Below are positions 4,936-6,540 of a stretch of 36,873 nt of DNA, one piece after another. This DNA is from Nanobdellota archaeon (GTDB taxonomy: Archaea; Nanobdellota; Nanobdellia; Parvarchaeales; Parvarchaeaceae). The stretch's first letter is position 1; every line of letters starts with the position of its first letter. The translations under genes were made by a program, and so were the position numbers. The stretch spans positions 1-36,873 of the forward strand of contig JAJZLM010000014.1 of assembly GCA_021850635.1 (NCBI GenBank), read 5' to 3'. The notes below the pieces were generated by a model, which saw only the letters and a list, made by a program, of their open reading frames with translations, searched no databases and was not told where the DNA came from.

Positions 4936-5565
4936 TCAAAAAAGACTGAATCTTACCCCGTACGTTTCGTATAGTAGCTTAAAGTCAGCATCGTCAGCCA
5001 TCTCCCTACTAATATAGAGCGTGTAATAGTTATCCTCTCCTTTGACGGCTTTGCACTTAATGCATAAGTTCTCCTTGAGCGCTTTATAGGTTATGAACAC
5101 CTTGCTCAATCTGTCTTCTGTCTGGTAGTAAGGCAAAGCAGAAATGTGCCCACATACGTTGCACCTCTTGGCTACTGTGAAATATTCCGAAGGGGGCAGT
5201 ACGTCAAAAAGCTCGGGCTCGTCCTGATCATAAAAATGTTTTGCTGATTTACCCCCCAGTCTTTTAAACATGGCCTCCCACTGCTCATCTGGCTCCATGT
5301 TACTTTCTGGCAACAGTTTAAACTTTGCTCTGGCAGCTATCTGACGCAGTAATTCATTAGCTACTCCCTCTATCGACGAAAATGCCATCGTTAACTCGTC
5401 GATTACTATCTTGTCGTTATATGCATCATAAAGGCTATAATTTCCCAACATAATAATTCTATCTATCTCGCACTCTTCCGAACTAGGTATGAAACGCTCG
5501 TATTCCGGTTTTGGATACGAATATTTTATTCTTGCTAAAACGTCTTCTAAATTTTTGGAAGCCAA
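4936..5565 (-). CDS. Hypothetical protein with zinc-ribbon-like CxxC...CxxC (209 aa; TTG start or 5'-truncated)
   Basis: CNVCGHISALPYY...NLCIKCKAVKG four-Cys pattern; the reported first Met is a TTG codon (caa at 5563-5565). Confidence 0.6.
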   Translation of the reverse strand: MASKNLEDVLARIKYSYPKPEYERFIPSSEECEIDRIIMLGNYSLYDAYNDKIVIDELTMAFSSIEGVANELLRQIAARAKFKLLPESNMEPDEQWEAMFKRLGGKSAKHFYDQDEPELFDVLPPSEYFTVAKRCNVCGHISALPYYQTEDRLSKVFITYKALKENLCIKCKAVKGEDNYYTLYISREMADDADFKLLYETYGVRFSLF

Positions 5566-5599
5566 ACTGTGCGTATCTAACCCTCGTTTTTGCCTTTCC

Positions 5600-5795
5600 G
5601 TGATATCCTCCGTTCTCTAAAGAACGTGGGCTTCCGCAGCTATCTGCTGTCGAGATGGTTCCCGCTTCTTGTATAGGCACGGCCTGGACTTATATGCTGC
5701 CGACATATTGCCATTTTACCACTCTTGCTATTTATGTTTTCCATTCTTTCAGTTCGCTTTCATCCCACTGCTAAAGCACGTGGGGTTTTTCCTGC
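5600..5795 (-). mobile_element. IS200/IS605-family remnant or MITE: end hairpins plus TnpB C-terminal/omega-RNA-like tail, no transposase
   Basis: On minus strand: CCCCACGTGCTTTAGCAGTGGGA hairpin (5763-5785), then PIQEAGTISTADSCGSPR (TnpB-tail-like) over CAGCAGATAGCTGCGGAAGCCCACGTTCTTTAGAGAACGGAGGATATCAC with hairpin 5611-5626. Outer limits approximate. Confidence 0.7.
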
Positions 5796-5892
5796 TCACC
5801 TTTTAGAGTATATGGTTTTAGATGTAGGTCCTTATAGAATGCAAAGGTTTATATATTACCTAATATCATATAGTATATAAGGGGTGATATAA

Positions 5893-6069
5893 ATGGATGA
5901 ATCATTTATGAACAGAAAGATGCATAGAGGGTGTTGCTGCAACGGCGGTATGGGAATGCATCGATTCGACGAAGCCGAAGACGTGGACAGCTTAAAGGAA
6001 TACAAGGAAATGCTTGAAGTTGAGTTAAAGTATCTTAACGAAAAGATAACTTCTGCAGAAAAAGAGTAA
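5893..6069 (+). CDS. Cys-rich small protein with C-terminal coiled coil (58 aa, DUF5320-like architecture)
   Basis: ATG 5893, SD-like GGGGTGAT; translation MDESFMNRKMHRGCCCNGGMGMHRFDEAEDVDSLKEYKEMLEVELKYLNEKITSAEKE. Confidence 0.7.
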   Translation: MDESFMNRKMHRGCCCNGGMGMHRFDEAEDVDSLKEYKEMLEVELKYLNEKITSAEKE

Positions 6070-6071
6070 GT

Positions 6072-6431
6072 ATGATGAATGGACACTGCAGATGCGGTCC
6101 CTTCAGGGTAAATATGATGCCGCAAGGCGTCATAAAACCCTATATACTAAAGCTTCTAAATGAGAGGCCGATGCATGGTTTTGAGATAATGCAGGAAATC
6201 TTCGACAGATCAAAAGGGTTATGGCGACCTAGTACAGCTGCTGTGTATCCAGCGTTGTCCCAGTTAGAAAAGAGAGGATTTATTGAGAAGACCGGTGCGG
6301 ATAAAAACCTCCCTGAAAAAGCAAGAAAGGAGTACAGAATAACAGAAAAAGGGAAAGAAGCTCTTTCTGATTTCAGTAAATTTAAGAAGGATTGGATAGA
6401 AAGCGTAGACAACATGAAGGACTTCTTCTAG
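6072..6431 (+). CDS. PadR family transcriptional regulator
   Basis: LLNERPMHGFEIMQEIFDRSKGLWRPSTAAVYPALSQLEKRGFIE...YRITEKGKEAL is PadR winged-helix sequence; 2-nt gap from upstream ORF. Confidence 0.9.
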   Translation: MMNGHCRCGPFRVNMMPQGVIKPYILKLLNERPMHGFEIMQEIFDRSKGLWRPSTAAVYPALSQLEKRGFIEKTGADKNLPEKARKEYRITEKGKEALSDFSKFKKDWIESVDNMKDFF

Positions 6432-6465: not shown

Positions 6466-6540
6466 TGCCCTCGCCAGGATTTGAACCTGGGATATTCGGT
6501 TTAGGAAACCGACGTTCTGTCCAAGCTAAACTACGAGGGC
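6466..6540 (-). tRNA. tRNA-Arg(CCU)
   Basis: Acceptor GCCCTCG/CGAGGGC, anticodon stem TCGGT-TTCCTAA-ACCGA, T-loop TTCAAAT. Confidence 0.93.

Follow-up and report, generated by a model that had tools for sequence, protein, structure and literature searches.

Palindrome-associated transposable elements (PATEs) have been described in Haloquadratum walsbyi as elements with IS605-type ends and near-terminal palindromes, a deleted core, no transposase and no target duplication (PMC3119063). The deletions there are attributed to near-terminal direct repeats, and the terminal-only ISHwa23 copies lead from a tnpB element of ~1500 bp down to 52 bp; mobility of the short element is not required of such terminal-only remnants (PMC3119063). 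A PATE-like sequence of 271 nt in Halanaerobium hydrogeniformans consists of a left-end (LE) hairpin, the last 58 nt of the tnpB ORF and a right end (RE) (PMC7290912). Halobacterium sotRNAs (PMC12558985) and ISDra2 TnpB (PMC10097598) represent tnpB-only IS605 (IS1341-type) elements that carry an omega-RNA at the 3' end. The scaffold of ISDra2 TnpB is 116 nt long, and a pseudoknot links its guide-proximal end to positions near -103 (PMC10097598).

We analyzed a window of 36,873 nt from a Nanobdellota archaeon of the Parvarchaeaceae, whose assembly (G000) comprises 569 kb in 28 contigs and is ~90% complete. Positions 5600–5806 on the minus strand hold a short element, very probably a non-autonomous remnant that arose by internal deletion within a tnpB-only IS605/IS1341-type family with multiple copies in the own genome and across the genus; PATE is the best name for it. 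It has IS605-like palindromic ends without terminal inverted repeats and is too short to encode a transposase. The diverged left tip, CTAAAAGGTGAGCAGG, is followed by the LE hairpin, a promoter-like box, codons of the TnpB N-terminus, codons of the TnpB C-terminus and the right end. Both outer limits (LE tip at ~5806, RE tip at 5600) are set by matches to resident copies and to copies of the genus.

The LE hairpin named in the original prediction, CCCACGTGCTTTAGCAGTGGG, is present on the minus strand at 5764–5784 (CCCAC-G-TGC-TTTA-GCA-GTGGG). It is identical in the resident copies on contigs C25, C20 and C4, and shares the architecture of the RE hairpin of full copies. The predicted right end, GCGGAAGCCCACGTTCTTTAGAGAACGGAGGATATCAC, terminates at 5600 on the minus strand as proposed, whereas the left end extends beyond the proposed 5795. 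The element contains no tnpA and no tnpB body, in agreement with the prediction.

Searching the own genome at the DNA level revealed thirteen further matching places, nine on the left-end side and four on the right-end side. The best left-end match shows 96% identity over 114 nt (E 1.7e-48), and the right-end matches show 82–83% over 71 nt, with E values down to 3.9e-15. Matches of the hairpin ends at this level are far beyond chance. The left-end matches (C25 start, C20, C4, C27, C7, C13 and C17) extend from the hairpin up to the tnpB start or beyond it and break off at contig ends, and the right-end matches (C25 end, C28, C12 and C23 end) derive from the 3' side of tnpB. Multi-copy elements that collapse in an assembly usually leave such a contig-end pattern, and at least seven left ends are of this kind. 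A single long tnpB body is assembled (C25:61443; Pfam OrfB_IS605, 105.8 bits), and a 242-residue C-terminal stretch of its product matches OrfB_IS605 with 104 bits and Cas12f1-like_TNB with 81.3 bits. The resident TnpB retains the RuvC motifs GIDMG, VIETLN and LDRDVN together with paired cysteines.

Full-length copies of ~1.4 kb with the same ends are found in several genomes of the genus, several of them frame-broken by a frameshift or a stop in tnpB. The near-terminal hairpins at both ends of the window copy match those of the full-length members, and full TnpB copies with these ends, in the own genome and in the genus, bear out the assignment to the IS200/IS605 type. A Pfam Y1_Tnp search of the own genome (~90% complete) detected no TnpA. 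Among 28 genus genomes, TnpA is present in two (G008 and G009), at loci without ends of this type. Because of these two findings we refer to the family as tnpB-only (IS1341-type). Compared with its relatives, the window copy is internally deleted, and both its ends and its 3' scaffold belong to the family. With 12–13 N-terminal and ~17 C-terminal codons of TnpB left, it is a derivative of the IS605/IS1341 family and not an autonomous member.

These codons form a 29-codon open frame, MSAAYKSRPCLYKKREPSRQQIAAEAHVL, at 5617–5706 on the minus strand, in which the TnpB N-terminus is joined in frame to the TnpB C-terminus and runs to a stop. Resident TnpB copies start with MSAAYKFRLYPN and terminate with KKQEPVLQQIAAEAHAL and a stop. 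The frame quoted in the original prediction, PIQEAGTISTADSCGSPRS, is not that of TnpB; the TnpB-homologous frame is the next one, ending in KKREPSRQQIAAEAHVL and a stop, which matches the resident KKQEPVLQQIAAEAHAL. At the deletion junction (5660–5675, minus strand), AAGAAGCGG resembles both AAGGAGCAG at tnpB codons ~13–15 on the N-terminal side and AAGAAGCAG near the 3' end on the C-terminal side. The latter two are alike in the same reading phase, and the junction suggests a deletion via microhomology. Upstream of the frame, the promoter-like box GGAAAACATAAATA (5729–5742, minus strand) is near-invariant among 41 distinct left ends of the genus. Its core, AAACATAAATA, begins 33 nt upstream of the tnpB ATG, a spacing kept in most copies. 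Judged by its sequence, the box is a putative promoter, from which the remnant may be transcribed.

The family parallels ISHwa23 in its size range, from ~1.4 kb to 53 bp here and from ~1500 bp to 52 bp there. In contrast to the PATEs of H. walsbyi, the window copy keeps ~200 bp with a promoter-like box, a fused frame and half of a scaffold; its right-end hairpin is rewritten, and it belongs to a different lineage. The 271-nt sequence of Halanaerobium hydrogeniformans has nearly the same anatomy, but belongs to another family with other hairpins, and some of the parents there carry tnpA. The window copy is thus an ordinary kind of transposon remnant, of an already known type.

The original prediction also proposed an omega-RNA-like tail. 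We made a covariance model from the scaffolds of ten relatives, excluding the window sequence, and it matches 5600–5670 on the minus strand (cmsearch 75.1 bits, E 4e-19), so that the tail is supported as the 3' part of an omega-RNA-like scaffold. The next match of the model after this region is the LE hairpin. The 3' 71 nt of the window copy align with the relatives' scaffolds, and the two helices, compared across 13 sequences, contain 8 pairs in which both partners have changed, where shuffles give 3.3. The covariation score is 0.203 versus 0.112 in shuffles; none of 500 shuffles reaches it, and a slid alignment gives at most 0.115. Helix 1 is the apical hairpin CAGC-AGATA-GCTG at 5637–5649 (minus strand), indicated by folding and covariation, and helix 2 is the right-end hairpin. 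Conservation of helix 2 could reflect a role as single-stranded DNA in transposition. Since helix 1 is internal, RNA is the simpler reason for its conservation. In sequence and structure, the region corresponds to the 3' scaffold of an omega-RNA or reRNA, and it still folds (z -2.2). A Rfam search of 5300–6100 gave no credible match to a curated RNA family.

The scaffold is incomplete: its 5' domain is missing, and so is the sequence predicted to pair with the RE tip. The lost domain covers positions -127 to -71 of a scaffold of ~127 nt and includes the upstream segment TGACGGC...GAGCC, TGACGGCGGAACTTGC...GCAAGGTCTACGAGCC, which is present in most full-scaffold copies. The TGAC of this segment is complementary to the terminal GTCA, and RNAfold closes exactly this pairing in one relative. 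The window copy ends in ATCAC where other copies have GTCA. Meanwhile, its right-end hairpin is rewritten into CGTTCT-TTAG-AGAACG (5611–5626, minus strand). Four substitutions ruin much of the outer CCCAC/GTGGG stem, which is lost, and shift the register so that CGTTCT and AGAACG form a perfect 6-bp stem. This new stem is odd for plain decay; it looks like the result of selection and is the strongest sign that something still acts there. The locus resembles the sotRNA and ISDra2 systems in that the scaffold overlaps the 3' end of tnpB, has structured hairpins and a terminal RE motif, and would be followed by a guide after the RE. Unlike these systems, the window copy has neither tnpB nor the 5' scaffold domain.

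An orphan guide-RNA locus was one of the two readings offered by the original prediction. In such a locus, the putative promoter would produce the 3' scaffold together with the would-be guide GGAAAGGCAAAAACGAGG, which is assigned by position (5582–5599, minus strand), and this RNA would load the resident TnpB and direct the cutting of element-free copies of the site. The conserved promoter-like box, the recognisable 3' scaffold with its largely paired helix 1, the right-end hairpin rebuilt in a new register and a tnpB gene at another place in the genome, whose product has the catalytic residues, are in line with this reading. Nevertheless, we consider a working orphan guide RNA unlikely, because the 5' half of the scaffold is gone, including the TGAC predicted to pair with the tip, and only the 3' ~70 nt are left. 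For comparison, the 116-nt scaffold of ISDra2 contains the guide-proximal pseudoknot with ~-103 (PMC10097598). Moreover, the TTAT expected as TAM is not at the left flank, and GGAAAGGCAAAAACGAGG has no second exact match in the own genome, where the nearest one has 3 mismatches. The remnant most likely neither moves nor guides TnpB.

On the left side, the element is a mosaic. A 92-bp tract (5693–5784, minus strand) is the longest identical match to the resident copy at the start of G000:C25, whereas divergence is seen in the left tip, in the 27 nt of coding sequence that follow the tract and in the right end. Immediately beyond the tract, the coding sequence (AAGTCCAGG, KSR) resembles another subfamily. 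A recent insertion, which the 96% left-end identity might suggest, was rejected because the 92-bp tract is sharply bordered and the KSR-type residues are shared with that other subfamily. For the same reasons we favour conversion, and gene conversion by the resident copy fits the mosaic best.

The tract is about the size of an assembly k-mer, and an assembly artefact could give such a mosaic. In that case, two element copies would have been joined via their shared repeat of ~92 bp; the tract is sharply bordered, and family copies end contigs elsewhere in the assembly. On the other hand, the window reads through continuously where the assembler broke at other copies, and no other contig-end copy in the own genome resembles its diverged scaffold and left tip. 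We regard a chimera as improbable and retain gene conversion as the preferred explanation for the left end.

The right end of the remnant faces a gene of 209 aa (4936–5565, minus strand), for which no Pfam match was found. Its first usual start is now TTG. An ortholog with 51% identity, beginning MEQQEE, is encoded in G017. The protein carries two CxxC pairs, and G017 is the one other genus genome in which it is found. Sister copies of the element mostly lie directly after TTAT, and the left flank of the window copy reads ATACTCTAAAAG. Assuming that a TTAT originally stood here, joining the two flanks again would give TTATGGAAAGGCAA, which provides an ATG in frame with the 209-aa gene. The insertion probably separated the gene from its original ATG and may have split this start codon. 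G017, the sole genus genome with the flanking gene, has no similar intergenic neighbourhood and gave no empty site. Oriented divergently to both the element and its flanking gene, 5893–6431 encodes a 58-aa Cys/Met/Gly-rich protein (weak DUF5320) followed by a PadR-type regulator, and a tRNA-Arg (CCT) lies near the element at 6466–6540 on the minus strand.

Based on these comparisons, we propose a history whose order is inferred. A full copy of ~1.4 kb would have inserted by a TTAT-type target, upstream of or in the start codon of the 4936–5565 gene. A deletion between the short in-frame repeats AAGGAGCAG (tnpB 5' end) and AAGAAGCAG (3' end) would then have taken ~1.2 kb out of tnpB, and with it the 5' half of the scaffold of the guide RNA. 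What was left would have stayed in place and decayed, and a resident copy would later have replaced its left end in a conversion-like event. The kept fold, the rebuilt hairpin, the intact promoter-like box and the open fused frame speak against plain decay.

Internal-deletion derivatives of 140–820 bp are common in the genus. We compared them with full copies via anchors, since frame-broken full copies made DNA-level alignment unusable. The shortest forms in the own genome are five nearly identical single-hairpin forms of ~53 bp (L108–L112) at five TTAT sites (G000:C22:6001, C7:34143, C7:24254, C6:3811 and C3:10919), of the form TTAT-CAAATGTGAGCGGGAAAACCCACACTCTTTAGAGGTGGGAGGATGTCAC, with the LE tip and the RE tip around one hairpin. 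The left-end copy on C7 and the right-end copies on C12 and C28 have the 22-bp CCCACACTCTTTAGAGGTGGGA in common. The 53-bp forms could have arisen in place by repeat-mediated deletion, or the short form could have moved. Similar single-hairpin forms occur in G022, G015 and G026 (L113, L115 and L116). In G004, L117, L120 and L121 represent one deletion type with the junction at TTGACGGCAGAACTT just after the ATG; they keep most of the scaffold and are more promising as guide-only elements than the window copy is.

The second reading of the original prediction was a MITE mobilised in trans, and for the window copy in its present shortened form we judge this to be quite unlikely. Both hairpin ends are retained, one deletion type recurs at three sites in G004, so that some short forms seem to have moved, and the 53-bp forms occupy five sites. 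However, the deletion product is single-copy, as no second copy with the same junction was found in the own genome or in 55 relatives. The TTAT target is missing, the right-end hairpin is altered, no TnpA was found in the genome, and the genus TnpA genes are unlinked to such ends. A TnpA or a second copy of the remnant could be missed in a genome ~90% complete. The decaying remnant remains our preferred reading.

The frame could be assigned in 19 derivatives, and 13 of these keep the tnpB frame without stops (p 0.0019 versus one third). Selection or repeat phase may account for this surplus, as microhomology in the same phase is found at some junctions at least, and the events are possibly non-independent. 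A maintained mini-unit, transcribed from the box and translated, whose short scaffold supplies the resident TnpB with a guide specific to the locus as part of a genus-wide selected class of in-frame N/C fusions, is very doubtful.

We looked for a multi-copy relative and for a scaffold match, whose joint absence was to count against the original prediction, and found both kinds of match. The main value of the window copy is that it illustrates a known kind of remnant clearly and in well-dissected form. The 92-bp identical mosaic tract, the 53-bp single-hairpin remnants and the surplus of in-frame deletions are new details. Within the genus, one tnpB-only family has given rise to graded remnants, from 1.4 kb down to 53 bp. 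Remnants with most of the scaffold versus half of it would provide a natural test of the scaffold parts that TnpB needs, and the series would also test whether guide-only elements persist. Two further shortened or decayed members in the own genome lie at G000:C23:16823-17106 (L018) and G000:C1:4462-4509 (L014, L028).
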